DNA of 50,376 nucleotides from assembly GCA_913055745.1 (NCBI GenBank), contig CAJXJZ010000009.1:1-50376 (forward strand), given 5' to 3'. This stretch comes from an uncultured bacterium. GTDB taxonomy: Bacteria; Hydrothermota; Hydrothermia; UBA1063; CAJXJZ01. The notes under the pieces were generated by a model. It saw only the letters and a list, made by a program, of their open reading frames with translations, was not told the DNA's origin and ran no database searches. This document shows, piece after piece, positions 2,595 to 26,095 of this stretch (the stretch's first letter is position 1; every line of letters begins with the position of its first letter). Both the position numbers and the translations under genes were made by a program.

Positions 2595-5500
2595 TTATTT
2601 TACCATTATCATCTTTTTGGATTTTCTGAATCTTCCAGCCTGTAATACATAGAAATAGACGCCGCTTTTTACTTTCTTGCCATTCTCATTTCTGCCATTC
2701 CATACCACTGTGTAGTATCCTCTCTTAAGATTACCATTTATAAGGGTCTTCACCTTTCTTCCTGTTATATCAAAGATACTCAATTTTGCTCTCGTTTCCT
2801 TAGGGATTGCAAACTTTATAGTGGTTGCATGAGCAAATGGATTGGGGAAATTACCCATGAGTTCAAATCTTGTAGGGCCTAAACTTACAGCGTGTTCATC
2901 TATTCCAGTGTAAACTGGAGTATCCGTTGTAAACTTAATGGCAAATTGGGCTCTTATCTCATTTGCATGCACATCATAGGTGCCATCGTACATATATTGT
3001 AGCCCAACTGAGCCATCCTGATTCTCTATACCAACTGTCACATCACTCTGTCCAAGTGGTGATGCATACATGACAACTATTTCACCATCCCCTGTAAGCG
3101 TAGGATTATATGCGGGGTCATAGAGGATAACCTCAGCTTTCTCTGGGGTCGAACTACTATAATGATAAACACTGTCCCACTCTACAATAAACATATGATT
3201 TGTGGTATCAGCATAGTAGTATATCTTACCACTACCCGTTGCTGTCGGGCTAAGGTCATCCCAGAAAGGTGCTATAACATTGTTTGGCGAAGAGGAGTTA
3301 GGTATATAAGTGTTGCTATAGGTATGGGATGAATCAATCCCTAATGCCATCCAGCCATTTGAACATATAGAAACCTGATTATAATCTGTTCCGTAATACT
3401 TAAATGTGAATGGGAGAGAAACAACTTCTGTAGAATCATCACCATCTGCTACTACGGTACCATTCTGTGATATTTCTATCCAGTTATAATTAGGCCTTTC
3501 AGAATAGGCATCATACATATCATATGCATAGTATCCATAACTATCAGGTCCTGTATAGATAAGTCTTGGGTCTCCTATGGTTAGGGTAAAGCCAAATGTA
3601 TCCACATAAGTGCCTGAATTAGCACTTACCACTAAGGAGAATTGTGCAGAACTTCCTATGGGGGCATCCTGTGACACACTTACACTGAAACTACCTACCT
3701 TTGTTGAATCTGTGTGTATATCACCAAAATTGTAATCAGCATTGTCTATGGTTATGTAAGAAGAAGAAGTTTCCAATGCTCCGCTTACACCAGAAGCATC
3801 CTGTCCCATATTAGAAAGATATATATTTAATGTTACTGTCTCTCCAGGGTCCATAATCCCGTTGCCATTTCCCTGCGTGGTGTCAACAATAGTCATATCC
3901 TTCATATAGATACTGGTTGGCGCCTCTGGTGGGGTTACTCTAATATCATCAATATACCACCCCTCATGCTGCACGCTACCATCACTTGTCCCCCTAAACC
4001 TTATGAGAATACTTGTGCCTGGCGCGATATCTGATAGGTCAAGAACCATCCTTTGCCAGTCAGATGCTCCATTTATACTTTGAAGCACTTGCCATGTTGC
4101 ACCGCTGTCTGTGGAATACTCAACATATCCATAATCGTAATTGGTCTCAAAATCATACCATGTCCAGAATTTGAGTTTGGCATTTGGTCCTACTGTTATA
4201 TAAGGACTTGTGAGCGACGCATTGGCATTATTGGGATACTGTCCTGTACTATCATTGCCAAAATAGAATGAATGGGAAGCAGAATGATATCTTCTCTGTG
4301 ATACATGCCATGGACTTTCCATAGTCCAGTTTATGGTATCTGTATCTTCAACATCTGTGAAATAACCTGTATTACCAATAAAGAGTTTTACAGTATCTAC
4401 AAAGGTATATCCATCACCCTGAAAGGTTACATATAAATCTGCTTGATGTGGGTCAGGGCATGTATTATCTATAACCAAGTTAAATGGATTCGAAGGCTGC
4501 ATAGATGAACTCGCGCTTATATCTCCATAGGTTGTATTGGAGGTATTTATTGTTATATATGGATCATTGCTTGTAAGGGTTGCATTCACGCCGTGTATAT
4601 CCTCATGTCCTGAATTTACAGCACTAAAAGATAGGTCAATCTCCTCACCAGGCTGTGCAACATTATCATGGTTATCCTGAGAAAATGTATCTAAGACTGT
4701 AAGCGCACCTGCATTTATAATGGGTGCATAGACTGTTAAATTGAGATTGGAAGATGTGGTATCTATGGCTCCTGTATCCTGAAAAACAGATACAATCTGG
4801 AAGTTTAATACCTCCTGGTCCTGGGCATTCTGAGATACATCAAAGATAAAGTCTGAATCGCCCCATGCAGAATCCCCGGGATATATATCGCCAAATGAAC
4901 TTGTATCCTGGATAATGTTGACATCAGAAGATGATGTGACAAGTTTTGCTAATACATTGTATGCTGTGTCCTGTCCCCAGTTTTTAAGAAGCGTCTTAAG
5001 TTCGATCTCTTCACCTGGATTTATTCTACCATTATTGTTCCCCTGGGTATCTATGATATTTGCCTCAAGAAGTGAAACATACGCCCCCTGTCCTGAGGGG
5101 ATCACATAACTTACAGAAGGCTTATGGTTATAACCTGTTACAGTGATGTACACTGTATCAGGTGTTGTCACAGAAAGGGTCAATGTTGCCACGCCTGTCG
5201 CATCAGTATACTTTGCATCAAGTAGATTACCGTTTTGAACGGCTGAGACCAATGCTCCCTGGACATTTCCATTTACATCAGATACGGATACATTAAAATT
5301 CACAGTTCCAAATGGTATTGTGAGAGCATGTGAAACAGAAAACTCATAAGGGACATGGGTATATATGTACATTGATGGGTCGCCAAAGAGATTATATTGC
5401 TGGAAGTACCTTAATGTACCGACATTGCCTGTATTGTCTCCATAATGCGCATAAAAATCCATTTTAGCAGCATTTATGGCGCCCATTACCCATACATAAC

Positions 5501-7097
5501 CACTATCAAAAATCTCATCAAACATCCTTCTCTGTAAAATGTCGTCTTCATCCCACAAAGATGTGACAGAAGAGCCAAATGCAGCGGCTGCGCCTTTATC
5601 CGGCGCCCTTTGCCATGCCTCCTGATAGCACTCATCAGTGTTTGCATAAGAGCCTGTAAGACAAGCATAGGTTTGCTCAAACGGTGTTTTTACACCATTT
5701 GTAAGATTAGAGTATATATCACTTACGCTGTACTGAAGGTCACTGTAATCTGCCCAACCTGTCTCACTCCCATGTCCTGAATAGGTGACAAGTGCACGCC
5801 CATCGTTAATGGTATTCGTTATGATAGTTGGAGCACCACTTGTATAGTATGCAAAAAGGCTATCTGCAATCATGCCATAATTTCTTACAATATTCATACA
5901 GTAAAGGTGTGTTCCCTCTGCTGTCTGGTGATTACCATTGTCAGCACTTGCTATGAAAAATGCCTTCTGAGCCCATAAGGTATCCTGACCCCAGAGGGTC
6001 TTTTCATAGGTTATAACCTTTCTTGCAATCACACCTACCATGGAATCGGTTGTGGCAGAAAATCTGCCCACATATACATCAGGAAAGTAATCATTACCAT
6101 CTAAAAGCGCATATCCAAGGTCATTGGCAGGGTTGTCGGCCTGGTCTGACCACCAGTTCCCAATTTGAGCAACATCTCCCACCAAAAGCACAAATGTAGG
6201 AGGCGAAGTCCAATTATTATAGGCATCCTGAATGTACTGTTTTACTGTGAGTGTGTCTCCTGATGGTATTGAATCAGGTATTGTTGCCACATGCACATGA
6301 TAACCCATCTCTCTCTTCCATGTTATAAAGTTCTGAAGGCTGTCCAAAAGCGCAGTAGGTGTTATAATAAGGTAAACAACAGGGAGGTTGGGATTTGCTT
6401 TTGACTCAAATACGCCATAATTTATAACCTTCTTTGATAGGTTCTGTTCAAAGAAAGGAGAATACTTATTTTGTATCTTATTCGTTGTGTATCCTGCATT
6501 TCCTCCACTATAGTTTATCTTTAATGTTATATCCTTTATAACTTCCAGTTTGCCTTTTACAGGATTGTATCTTACAGGGAAGAATTCCACCATATAGAGA
6601 TTATGTCCTCTTACAATGCCAGCCTTTTTTATAGAGACAATGTTCTTGGGCCAATAGGCATCTGTTTTATAAAGTGCCTTATCTATTACGAGTTTAGGCC
6701 TCGCACCCTTTATCTTTGGAACAGGTGGATAAGATGGCATTATGGGATGTAAAATACCCTCTTCTTTCATGGATATTTCTTTCTTATGGAATGATACAAT
6801 CTCATAGGAGACCTCTGCTCCATAAGGCACCTCAATAAATCTCCTTATAGCAGGTAAATTCGGCTTTCCAACCTCATTGATCTCTCCCATACCCCTATCT
6901 CTTAGGTAGAACCTTGTAAACTCTTTTCCACCGAGTTCGTAAGTGCTATATCTCAGTTTATCTACACCAATACGCATTGTCATCCCTATGCTGGATTTTT
7001 CCAGCACCTCTGCGTTTTTAGGCCCTCCTATATTTAGAGTGCCTGCATGGAGTATGCTCACAATGAGCACACTCAGTACTACCTTGTACCACCTCAT
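2595..7097 (-). CDS. Secreted C25 (gingipain-family) cysteine protease with C-terminal sorting domain
   Basis: A 1500-residue exported multidomain protease. A signal peptide covers residues 1-19 and a gingipain-type propeptide runs to about 235. The peptidase C25 domain covers about 240-590. Its catalytic dyad is visible as His442 (SGHG) and Cys479 (YACLTG). Next come an Ig-like domain (590-655), two beta-sandwich repeats with a G-N-x-x-G-x-x-x-PGE-like calcium-type loop (675-790, 795-905), a MAM-like sandwich ending GWYIDDIRV (910-1055), a third PGE repeat (1065-1165) and a NIDO-like region with NGWMALG and APFWDDLSP. The last 90 residues (NFPNPF, FDITGRKV, SGVYFYVL, KKMIMVK) are a FlgD-like/type IX-secretion sorting domain. 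An AGGAGG ribosome site lies 8 bases before the ATG. It is the last gene of the M42-panBCD run, 10 bases after panD, and ends at a strong terminator. The substrate is unknown. Confidence 0.93.
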   Translation of the reverse strand: MRWYKVVLSVLIVSILHAGTLNIGGPKNAEVLEKSSIGMTMRIGVDKLRYSTYELGGKEFTRFYLRDRGMGEINEVGKPNLPAIRRFIEVPYGAEVSYEIVSFHKKEISMKEEGILHPIMPSYPPVPKIKGARPKLVIDKALYKTDAYWPKNIVSIKKAGIVRGHNLYMVEFFPVRYNPVKGKLEVIKDITLKINYSGGNAGYTTNKIQNKYSPFFEQNLSKKVINYGVFESKANPNLPVVYLIITPTALLDSLQNFITWKREMGYHVHVATIPDSIPSGDTLTVKQYIQDAYNNWTSPPTFVLLVGDVAQIGNWWSDQADNPANDLGYALLDGNDYFPDVYVGRFSATTDSMVGVIARKVITYEKTLWGQDTLWAQKAFFIASADNGNHQTAEGTHLYCMNIVRNYGMIADSLFAYYTSGAPTIITNTINDGRALVTYSGHGSETGWADYSDLQYSVSDIYSNLTNGVKTPFEQTYACLTGSYANTDECYQEAWQRAPDKGAAAAFGSSVTSLWDEDDILQRRMFDEIFDSGYVWVMGAINAAKMDFYAHYGDNTGNVGTLRYFQQYNLFGDPSMYIYTHVPYEFSVSHALTIPFGTVNFNVSVSDVNGNVQGALVSAVQNGNLLDAKYTDATGVATLTLSVTTPDTVYITVTGYNHKPSVSYVIPSGQGAYVSLLEANIIDTQGNNNGRINPGEEIELKTLLKNWGQDTAYNVLAKLVTSSSDVNIIQDTSSFGDIYPGDSAWGDSDFIFDVSQNAQDQEVLNFQIVSVFQDTGAIDTTSSNLNLTVYAPIINAGALTVLDTFSQDNHDNVAQPGEEIDLSFSAVNSGHEDIHGVNATLTSNDPYITINTSNTTYGDISASSSMQPSNPFNLVIDNTCPDPHQADLYVTFQGDGYTFVDTVKLFIGNTGYFTDVEDTDTINWTMESPWHVSQRRYHSASHSFYFGNDSTGQYPNNANASLTSPYITVGPNAKLKFWTWYDFETNYDYGYVEYSTDSGATWQVLQSINGASDWQRMVLDLSDIAPGTSILIRFRGTSDGSVQHEGWYIDDIRVTPPEAPTSIYMKDMTIVDTTQGNGNGIMDPGETVTLNIYLSNMGQDASGVSGALETSSSYITIDNADYNFGDIHTDSTKVGSFSVSVSQDAPIGSSAQFSLVVSANSGTYVDTFGFTLTIGDPRLIYTGPDSYGYYAYDMYDAYSERPNYNWIEISQNGTVVADGDDSTEVVSLPFTFKYYGTDYNQVSICSNGWMALGIDSSHTYSNTYIPNSSSPNNVIAPFWDDLSPTATGSGKIYYYADTTNHMFIVEWDSVYHYSSSTPEKAEVILYDPAYNPTLTGDGEIVVMYASPLGQSDVTVGIENQDGSVGLQYMYDGTYDVHANEIRAQFAIKFTTDTPVYTGIDEHAVSLGPTRFELMGNFPNPFAHATTIKFAIPKETRAKLSIFDITGRKVKTLINGNLKRGYYTVVWNGRNENGKKVKSGVYFYVLQAGRFRKSKKMIMVK

Positions 7098-23427: not shown

Positions 23428-24058
23428 ACTTTTAAAAAACATAGTACGTACTTTTTTGCCATCTACATGCTATGTGTGTGATAAATTATCAGACAATGCT
23501 GTATGTAAGGATTGCATGGAAAAATTCAATACCGTATATAAAAATGAAAAAAGGCTCTTTATTAAAAATCCCCAGGTTATGATTCAATCACCCTTTGTCT
23601 ATAAAGGTATTGTTAAGGAAATGATAGAGGACATAAAATACAGGGGCATATTCTTTCCTGTTCCATTCTTTGCTTCTTATCTTGCCTCCATGATAAGGGA
23701 AAATGCATACGACTTTTTAGTACCTGTCCCACTCCATTTTTTAAAAAGATGGAAGAGGGGTTTCAATCAGTCAGAGGAAATAGCAAAAGAGGTTTCAAAA
23801 CTTACTAAGATACCTATTTTAAAAAAGGTAAAACGGATAAGAAACACAAAATCTCAAACAAAACTCTCCAGAAAAGAGAGGATGTTGAATGTAAAAGGTG
23901 CTTTTCGTGTAGACATCTCTCTTAAAGGAAAAAGGCTTGCAATTATTGATGATGTCATTACCACTGGTGCAACAACCCTTGAACTTGCCATCATGCTCTA
24001 TAAAAAAGACGCAGAGAAAGTTGATATTTATGCAGCCTCTATGGCGGAAATGGATTAG
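23420..24058 (+). CDS. comF: ComF family phosphoribosyltransferase-like protein
   Basis: A 212-residue ComF-type protein, a family tied in some bacteria to DNA uptake and recombination, built from a zinc finger plus a phosphoribosyltransferase fold. The finger cysteines are in CYVCDKLSDNAVCKDC near residues 14-29. The PRPP-binding loop is IIDDVITTGATTLE near residues 174-187, preceded by the RNTKSQTKLSRKER segment typical of the family. Length is normal. It overlaps lgt by 8 bases and is probably cotranscribed; it runs convergently into the PorX-like gene, overlapping by four bases. Its own role in this organism cannot be read. Confidence 0.9.
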   Translation: MPELLKNIVRTFLPSTCYVCDKLSDNAVCKDCMEKFNTVYKNEKRLFIKNPQVMIQSPFVYKGIVKEMIEDIKYRGIFFPVPFFASYLASMIRENAYDFLVPVPLHFLKRWKRGFNQSEEIAKEVSKLTKIPILKKVKRIRNTKSQTKLSRKERMLNVKGAFRVDISLKGKRLAIIDDVITTGATTLELAIMLYKKDAEKVDIYAASMAEMD

Positions 24059-25497
24059 TATATTTTAACCAATGGAATAATCATTTCATCAATTGTTACA
24101 CCTCCATGCATAATCTCACCTTTGTATCTTTTGGCATATGCATGTGGGTCTCTGGGATAAACAAAGAAGTAATTATCCCTTGCCATGGCAAGTTTTCCCA
24201 TACCTTTTAAAAGCCCTACCTCCCATGGCCTTTCAAATATGACTGCATGTCTTGGGTTTTCTATCCTCAAAGATGTACCAAATTTAAATCTCAATGAGTC
24301 TGTGAGTTCTGTGCCTCCATAAACTAAGGAAGGCTTTGTTGCTTGAATCCATCCATGATCCGTGGTAAGATAAACCATATAACCCTGCTCTACAAGTTCA
24401 GTTATTTTGTCGTTAAATCTGCTTTTCTTTAAGAGAAAATGGATCATATCCTTAAATTCCTCTGAGGTTTTTGCTATGTCTTTCAAAGGCTTTACTTTAC
24501 CCCTTACATGTGCTAAAATGTCTGTAAAATTTACAGTACCTGCAATGATAGGAGAAGATGGCTTTATATCATCAGTATCCTGAGGTGAGTTTAATCTATA
24601 AAAGTTAAAATTTTTATGGATACCTTCCCTTGCAAGTTGTTCTTTAAAAAGCTCCATTTCGTGTAAATTATCTGAAAGCCAGCCCGGGTGTAACCTTTGA
24701 ATTTCAGATGGTAACCTGCCGGCAAAAATACTGTTTCTTGCATAAATGGTTGATGTTGGAAGGATTGCATAATAAAGTTCTATCAAAGGTCTTACATGCG
24801 TTGGCAGTTCCTTTATTAACGCCTTAAATTGTGAAGTTTTTACACAATCAAGTACAAAGAAAGCGACTTTTTTCCCATCTTTAATGTCTGGAATAACGCG
24901 ATTTTTCACAACATTATCCGATCTTATAATATTGGCATTTAGCATCTCTTTATAATTTTCCTGTACCCATTCGGCAAATTCATTATTGAGTTCTTCTATT
25001 TCACCCTGTAGTATCTCATCTTGCGGGTCCTTTGTACTTATAAGATCAGCAATCTTTAGCCAACCATTAATATCCCTCGGCACTTCTGAAAGCTCCTGGT
25101 ACAACCTTGCAAGTTCCATGCCCTTCTTTCTATTATACACCTCATCCCTTTGAATTTTTTTAATAATTGCAATTATCTGCGTTGGCTTTATAGGTTTTAC
25201 GATGTAATCAAAAACGTCCTCAGAAAAAGACTCTTCCATAATATCTGTATCCTGAACCATCGTAACCATTACATAATGGATATTGGGTGCTATCTTCTTA
25301 GCCATACGGATAAACTCGTTACCATTTAAAGAAGGCATTCTAAAGTCAACAAGAACAAGGTCATACTTATTGTTTTTTAAAAGGGAAAGTGCTTCCTCAG
25401 GATGGTCTGATGTATCAACAGAAAATCCCTGCCTTTCAAGAAAAATTTTGTGTGGAGTTAATGTCTCTACCTCATCATCAACCCAGAGGATACGCAT
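24055..25497 (-). CDS. porX: PorX-like response regulator with PglZ domain
   Basis: A 480-residue protein with a CheY-type receiver (residues 1-115: acidic pair Asp7-Asp8, phosphoacceptor Asp51, Thr79, Lys101) and a C-terminal PglZ (alkaline-phosphatase fold) domain from about residue 205. In the PglZ part, VLDC (Asp217), TSTIYARNSIFAG (around Thr248/Thr250) and TTDHGW (Asp380, His381) are the expected metal and catalytic positions. This order is that of PorX, the regulator and nucleotide phosphodiesterase controlling type IX secretion in Bacteroidota. No DNA-binding domain is present. It is translationally coupled (TAATG) to the lamin-tail gene. A PorY-type sensor is not in the window. The C25 protease with a sorting domain supports the assignment. 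Confidence 0.88.
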   Translation of the reverse strand: MRILWVDDEVETLTPHKIFLERQGFSVDTSDHPEEALSLLKNNKYDLVLVDFRMPSLNGNEFIRMAKKIAPNIHYVMVTMVQDTDIMEESFSEDVFDYIVKPIKPTQIIAIIKKIQRDEVYNRKKGMELARLYQELSEVPRDINGWLKIADLISTKDPQDEILQGEIEELNNEFAEWVQENYKEMLNANIIRSDNVVKNRVIPDIKDGKKVAFFVLDCVKTSQFKALIKELPTHVRPLIELYYAILPTSTIYARNSIFAGRLPSEIQRLHPGWLSDNLHEMELFKEQLAREGIHKNFNFYRLNSPQDTDDIKPSSPIIAGTVNFTDILAHVRGKVKPLKDIAKTSEEFKDMIHFLLKKSRFNDKITELVEQGYMVYLTTDHGWIQATKPSLVYGGTELTDSLRFKFGTSLRIENPRHAVIFERPWEVGLLKGMGKLAMARDNYFFVYPRDPHAYAKRYKGEIMHGGVTIDEMIIPLVKIY

Positions 25498-26060
25498 TAC
25501 ATCCTTTTATGAGCATCTCTGAATAGTGCTTTAATTCTGCTCCATGAAACAGGATCAAGCCCCATCGGCGCATTGGGAGAAAGTGGTGTTGGATGTTCTG
25601 TATTTTTAAAGTCCTCAGGAGAGTCTGTATCATGGCCATCGGGAATGCGTGAAAGGTTTGTATTAGCCATTGGAGCATCATCCCATAGATATGGGTAAGA
25701 GTTTTTCCACTCATCAGATAAAACACCCCAGTTCACAAAATCTATCACATGATTATTATTAACCAGTATGGCAAAGCCACCTGAATTGGAAAGTTCCAAA
25801 TTGATTTGAACATCCTTTTGGGAGACAATACAGTCTTTTGAAAGCAAAATATAGGAATTGGGTTCAATACTTACATTGTCAAGCGAATGTTCACCGCTTG
25901 GAGTAATAAGATAGTAATCATCAAGATGCATAACATATGGAGAGGTATTGTAAAGTTCAATCCAAACCTGAGGATAGAAATTTATCTCATTTATAACCAC
26001 ACCCGCATAAGCAAACGATGATATAAGTAAGATTATTAAAACCTTTATTATACCCTTCAT
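25497..26060 (-). CDS. Exported lamin-tail domain protein
   Basis: A 187-residue protein with a signal peptide (residues 1-19, ending AYA) followed by a lamin-tail domain: VVINEINFYPQVWIELYN at the mature N-terminus, LDDYYLIT and LSRIPDGHDTDSPEDF near the end, the usual LTD landmarks. Bacterial LTD proteins are secreted or surface-associated; the exact role is unknown. No C-terminal sorting domain is present. It lies directly before and coupled to the PorX-like gene, and has a near-consensus promoter six bases upstream of ATG, so both would be made from a leaderless mRNA. Confidence 0.85.
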   Translation of the reverse strand: MKGIIKVLIILLISSFAYAGVVINEINFYPQVWIELYNTSPYVMHLDDYYLITPSGEHSLDNVSIEPNSYILLSKDCIVSQKDVQINLELSNSGGFAILVNNNHVIDFVNWGVLSDEWKNSYPYLWDDAPMANTNLSRIPDGHDTDSPEDFKNTEHPTPLSPNAPMGLDPVSWSRIKALFRDAHKRM

Positions 26061-26066
26061 ATTTTA

Positions 26067-26095
26067 ATAATACAGCCTCACACATGAATTGTCAA
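26067..26095 (-). promoter_or_regulatory. Near-consensus leaderless promoter of LTD-porX
   Basis: On the minus strand, perfect TTGACA (26090-26095), a 17-base spacer and TATTAT (26067-26072); only six bases separate the -10 box from the ATG at 26060. No ribosome site fits in between. Confidence 0.85.

Follow-up and report, generated by a model that had tools for sequence, protein, structure and literature searches.

A PorX orthologue paired with a predicted exported lamin-tail-domain protein in candidate division WOR-3

PorX is the switch protein that controls protein secretion by the type IX secretion system (T9SS) in Bacteroidota, and it has been studied in two Bacteroidota models. PMC10951265 describes PorX as being phosphorylated by PorY, as binding SigP and PorL/GldL, and as having phosphodiesterase activity. 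In P. gingivalis, the exported PorA, a small Ig-like protein, is placed upstream of PorXY-SigP (PMC7712824), and the PglZ domain of PorX has been treated as homologous to BREX PglZ (PMC12839542). The earlier note on the DNA analyzed here had remarked that PorX homologues outside Bacteroidota are little studied, and the literature found is consistent with this: searches mostly without subscription papers returned nothing pairing 'WOR-3' with 'type IX secretion', and nothing pairing 'lamin tail' with 'type IX secretion' or with 'PorX'.

The window, that is, the whole stretch of 50,376 nucleotides analyzed here, corresponds to contig 9 of the draft genome G000 (1.79 Mb, 95% complete). The host organism belongs to candidate division WOR-3, as do the named PorX-family relatives L124-L129. 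Related genomes are grouped below under anonymous family codes (f-numbers). The PorX encoded in the window is a further member of a known family, and what is new is the conserved unit that its gene forms with a lamin tail domain (LTD) gene.

PorX homologue and its ancestry

24055..25497, (-) strand: PorX homologue of 480 aa, with receiver, helical linker and PglZ (ORF, models, alignment, structure model, tree)
25162..25491, (-) strand: receiver domain, aa 3-112, with D8, E9, D51, T79, Y98 and K101 (Pfam and alignment)
24334..24873, (-) strand: PglZ domain core, aa 209-388, with D217, T250, D326, H330, D380 and H381 (Pfam and alignment)

The receiver (Pfam Response_reg, 7.4e-22) and the PglZ domain (Pfam, 2e-9, 38.1 bits, cut-off 25) were both recognized, and the receiver-linker-PglZ arrangement as a whole matched NCBIfam NF052313 (T9SS_RR_PorX equivalog) at 336.5 bits against a cut-off of 300, with residues 2-479 aligned to model positions 2-510. 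In a phmmer search of the PDB, PorX entries were matched over the whole length of the protein at 2e-63 to 4e-65, the best being 8ted (3.8e-65, residues 1-477). The AlphaFold2 model built from 19 rows reached a pLDDT of 91.3, and the 17 top Foldseek matches to it were all PorX chains (E 7.9e-49 to 4.8e-43, TM 0.64-0.70), followed by isolated receivers; since the whole-chain rmsd to the PorX chains is 12-14 Å, the orientation of the domains in the model is not matched. The protein thus resembles the PorX of P. gingivalis (7pv7/7pva/7pvk) and F. johnsoniae (8p6f/8ted) in domain order, full-length similarity, receiver and zinc residues, predicted fold and the T9SS genes in its genome, but differs in length (480 aa vs about 515), in its WOR-3 host, in its LTD gene partner and in having no kinase, sigma or motor partners identified.

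Active-site positions were taken from the residue list for PorXFj in PMC10951265 and mapped via the PDB phmmer alignment. Receiver residues D8, E9, D51, T79, Y98 and K101 correspond to Fj D11, E12, D54, T82, Y101 and K104; D8, E9, D51 and K101 are invariant in both the 13-row and the 19-row PorX alignments, and T79 and Y98 are nearly invariant in the former. At the zinc site with its catalytic Thr, T250, D217, D380 and H381 correspond to Fj T271, D237, D414 and H415, and D326, H330 and H464, the last lying outside the PglZ domain core, correspond to Fj D360, H364 and H499; all of them are invariant in both alignments. As judged from these aligned positions, the phosphorylation site and the two-zinc phosphodiesterase site are intact. 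The order of the domains and the presence of Asp51 and of the metal residues are therefore as the earlier note had described them, and its wording of "PorX-like" turned out to be cautious, given an equivalog match over cut-off, full-length matches to solved structures, the tree described below and T9SS genes in the genome. The porX gene is the only PglZ gene detected in G000. It shares 4 bases (24055-24058) with a convergent comF-like ORF at their stops.

The same note had pointed to placement among phage-defence PglZ proteins as grounds for abandoning the PorX assignment. A tree of 63 PglZ regions was built with three BREX-3 PglZ rows as the outgroup, leaving out one haloarchaeal PglZ row that had fallen on a very long branch within PorX in a first tree. 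The 29 PorX sequences of the class form a single clade (100/100), two further WOR-3 sequences lie near it (support 68/24), and FCB PorX sequences surround them, with BREX-3 PglZ split off (100/100). The window protein hence falls with FCB PorX and apart from phage-defence PglZ. That it could be a BREX-type PglZ carrying a receiver is scarcely credible: it does match the BREX-3 PglZ model at 93.8 bits and the PADLOC PglZ model at 69.6 bits, as expected of a common domain superfamily, but the former score is far under the cut-off of 250, the PorX match covers the full length, and no BREX genes were recognized among the scanned ORFs beside porX. BREX-3 PglZ shares the PglZ/alkaline-phosphatase-type domain with the window protein, but it lacks the receiver, forms a separate clade and occurs in a different gene context. 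A BREX or phage-defence identity is rejected by the model scores and the tree, and these comparisons support the window protein as a PorX orthologue and a true relative of Bacteroidota PorX.

Type IX secretion genes in the host and its relatives

Matches to SprA/Sov were present in all 41 genomes searched for T9SS genes (38 over cut-off; 409 bits in G000), and type A sorting tails likewise in 41/41, with 39 matches in G000. A PorU-like sortase scored over the strict cut-off in 7 of the 41 and just under it in many more. No complete PorU was found in the 95% complete G000 (best match 60.5 bits), and the same-genus G001 has one at 455 bits, so that either an assembly gap or loss may account for the absence. 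The GldL model exceeded its cut-off in none of the 41 genomes and gave three weak matches, none of them in G000, and diverged motors may escape this Bacteroidota model. The window itself also holds a peptidase gene 17 kb from porX, whose product is a likely T9SS cargo:

2595-7097, (-) strand: C25-family (gingipain-family) peptidase of 1500 aa, with C25 propeptide and T9SS sorting tail (model matches)

Because SprA/Sov and the 39 sorting-tail matches are present in the genome, the T9SS context of this PorX is genuine. PorX itself scored over cut-off in 26 of the 41 genomes; in five more (G002, G011, G016, G033, G039) the PglZ-bearing match is lower-scoring, split or fragmentary, and the remaining ten lack one. 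Of these ten, seven (G004, G008, G010, G015, G020, G023, G026) are at least 94% complete and carry SprA over cut-off; as judged by the models, these seven are apparent exceptions to the rule that PorX goes with every T9SS. A search of G000 identified neither a PorY kinase nor a SigP equivalent, and found one ECF-type sigma with a 151-aa neighbor. In G000, sprA is followed by a histidine kinase and an NtrC-type regulator (L244:15769-18565), and a similar pair occurs in G001 (L245).

The LTD gene and its pairing with porX

25497..26060, (-) strand: predicted exported LTD protein of 187 aa, with a signal-peptide-like start MKGIIKVLIILLISSFAYA|G, an LTD domain and a conserved C-terminal tail (ORF, Pfam, alignment)
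25725..26012, (-) strand: lamin tail domain, aa 17-112 (PF00932, 3.7e-8)
25521..25547, (-) strand: C-terminal tail motif SWSRIKALF, family consensus SW[GS][KR]IKA[LI]F (alignment and pattern search)
25495..25499, (-) strand: TAATG junction, in which one base is common to the LTD stop codon and the porX start codon (sequence)
26067..26095, (-) strand: promoter-like site TTGACA-17-TATTAT, 6 bases ahead of the LTD ATG and near-leaderless (11/12 consensus positions)

The LTD domain scored 34.2 bits in hmmscan against a cut-off of 34.3, and 35.6 bits, over the cut-off, in the genome scan; on these scores it is borderline but real. The signal-peptide-like N-terminus was judged by eye from the sequence, no sorting domain or T9SS C-terminal domain (CTD) was recognized in the protein (0 NCBIfam families at E 0.01), and its structure model, built from 4 rows, is poor (pLDDT 55.5).

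Both ORFs of the pair were recovered as the earlier note had them, and the translational coupling that it proposed is supported by the one-base overlap; an AGGA within the last LTD codons is a candidate ribosome site for porX. A candidate for its single near-consensus leaderless promoter was likewise found: the TTGACA-17-TATTAT site ranks first among 16 promoter-like matches in 2.4 kb, where shuffles gave a mean of 8.0. A TTGACA with a -10-like hexamer lies 6-9 nt before the LTD ATG in 4/4 same-genus genomes (G000-G003, the window included), in 3/3 f11 genomes with a weaker -10, and in the one f7 genome examined, and families f6 and f8 (4 rows) have a longer leader after TTGACA. Transcription probably starts at or beside the LTD ATG, and the LTD gene and porX would lie on one transcript.

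A profile search with the LTD protein over 40 genomes of the class recovered one clear family member in each of 21 (at least 119 bits; next best 62); G008 adds a fragment, located where a contig ends. In 11 of the 21 genomes, which belong to four families (G000-G003, G012, G021, G017, G024, G031, G035, G037; the porX of G002 spans two contigs), the LTD gene immediately precedes porX on its strand, with spacings of -1, 0, +7, or, according to which start is used, 0/+12. Since this arrangement recurs in so many genomes and families while the genes outside the pair vary between families, the pairing is, by gene order, non-random. The coupling noted in the window is thus kept across 11 genomes, and the same survey found the LTD family away from porX as well. 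In eight f9 genomes (L085-L092) the LTD protein begins with a very short hydrophobic stretch, and its gene immediately precedes one for a 337-aa RlmD/TrmA-like protein (34.5 bits in the single case tested, cut-off 183.55); two f7 genomes have the LTD gene on its own, with neither porX nor the RlmD/TrmA-like partner beside it. In G036 the LTD gene is present where a PorX match is absent. Conversely, ten class genomes have PorX without the LTD family (three in f2, four in f3, two in f5, and G033, where PorX is a fragment).

A survey of 147 genomes of the phylum found related LTD proteins with the tail TWGKIKAIY in three genomes of family f18 (G053, G055, G056), where a FecR-domain gene comes next (the domain was tested for in G053, L230; the neighbor is similar in the other two) and no PorX occurs in the 1.5-kb flanks. 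Among 80 named loci, this LTD family was found next to porX only in L125-L127, all of them WOR-3, and the L124 locus is cut off. In f2, a different, larger LTD protein of about 543 aa is encoded tail to tail with porX (L038:13917-15548; L128:7456-9177, which is WOR-3; L037). The 231-aa product of a gene preceding porX in f3 does not align as an LTD protein and was rejected as one. G000 also encodes, elsewhere, a 540-aa protein with two LTDs (L247:7963-9585).

The C-terminal tail sets the window family apart from other Pfam LTD (PF00932) proteins, with which it shares the LTD domain. All 21 family proteins carry SW[GS][KR]IKA[LI]F a few residues from their C-terminal end, with a pattern match on the LTD gene in each, and the 14 aligned members all carry S-W-x-x-I-K-A-x-F close to the C-terminus. 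No function is read into the basic residues after the motif, because the ribosome site of the following gene may account for them in part. Beyond the family, WGxIKxxF-like ends were seen only in an unrelated small protein of G025 and G032 (ending WGEIKxxF). We make no claim for a general WGxIKxxF export tail, as the DNA pattern gave many scattered matches in 41 genomes, reversed-pattern controls were of similar order in many, and one of the sequence sets had been collected partly by that very pattern. Literature searches, which did not target the tail by sequence, turned up no paper on it.

The slot held by the LTD gene in the paired genomes of the class is held elsewhere by a histidine kinase gene. 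In G040 this kinase gene (L026:8047-9120) immediately precedes porX, and among the 71 named loci that extend 1200 nt or more beyond the porX start, a related kinase gene occupies the same position in three: L134 (Krumholzibacteriia), L144 (Zixibacteria) and L197. These kinases are candidates for PorY outside Bacteroidota.

Possible roles of the LTD-porX pair

Given that PorA acts upstream of PorXY-SigP and that a kinase elsewhere occupies the LTD slot, a PorA-like, input-side role is favored for the LTD protein. We suggest, tentatively and with rather less than even confidence, that a T9SS-bearing WOR-3 host expresses its PorX orthologue from a single transcript together with an LTD protein, which is exported and serves PorX as an envelope-side relay or sensor. 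A histidine kinase would phosphorylate Asp51, the phosphorylated PorX would dimerize, and its PglZ site would act on oligonucleotides and/or a protein partner and so set T9SS output. The LTD protein, once exported, would work at the envelope side of this pathway, most likely feeding the kinase as PorA may do in P. gingivalis; we infer this direction of signaling, and T9SS as its target, from gene context. Like PorA, the LTD protein is small, predicted to be exported and proposed to act upstream of PorX, a likeness that concerns role, not demonstrated homology, and is hypothetical; unlike PorA, it has no recognized T9SS CTD and carries an LTD instead of a FimH-like domain. The FecR domain represents another envelope-signaling class, and the f18 arrangement, in which an LTD gene precedes a FecR-domain gene, counts for the relay. 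Counted against it are the LTD genes with no link to porX (eight in f9 and two in f7), the LTD gene of G036 without a PorX match, the ten class genomes with PorX and no LTD family, the short hydrophobic start in f9, and the failure to identify PorY, a SigP equivalent or GldL in G000.

The two genes could also share no more than a transcript, their adjacency being historical and without joint function, which we regard as somewhat unlikely. Downstream of the LTD gene, f9 and f18 carry different partners and f7 carries no partner. Family f1 is the first branch of the class in the PorX gene tree, so that a single ancestral pairing followed by later losses would suffice; nevertheless, the pair has been retained, despite changed outer neighbors, in four families whose PorX proteins are about 42% identical, with spacings held between -1 and +12. 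The earlier note had instead hinted at a surface-structure function under PorX control, but no target came to light, and a place upstream of PorX is equally conceivable for the LTD protein. As an output, it would be a surface or envelope component, exported and produced along with the secretion-system regulator. LTD proteins with an apparent T9SS sorting tail do occur in the same genome (the L247 protein) and phylum (G052, L229, where an ordinary tail was read from the sequence), and the LTD gene and porX stand under a common strong promoter; however, the window protein is small and single-copy with no recognized sorting domain, and an output gene would not need translational coupling to its regulator. 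This makes the output reading unlikely in our view. It is also doubtful that the LTD protein is a dedicated envelope-side sensor or ligand of PorX that replaces the upstream histidine kinase, its tail being a short sorting or docking signal instead of the T9SS Ig-like tail. More doubtful still is that PorX of this class controls something other than T9SS, such as a cyclic-oligonucleotide signal: the seven near-complete T9SS-bearing genomes without PorX and the lack of any GldL match over cut-off, GldL being a known PorX partner, would fit such a role, but the Bacteroidota model may miss a diverged motor, and most T9SS genomes searched have PorX (31/41 with at least a PglZ-bearing fragment).

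With the input-side relay as the favored reading, a conserved partner, predicted to be exported and to be co-translated with PorX in another phylum, would be a concrete candidate for the extracellular input to this pathway. The class further supplies apparent counter-examples to the view that PorX accompanies every T9SS, and WOR-3 may provide a second, evolutionarily distant system for asking what is ancestral in T9SS control.
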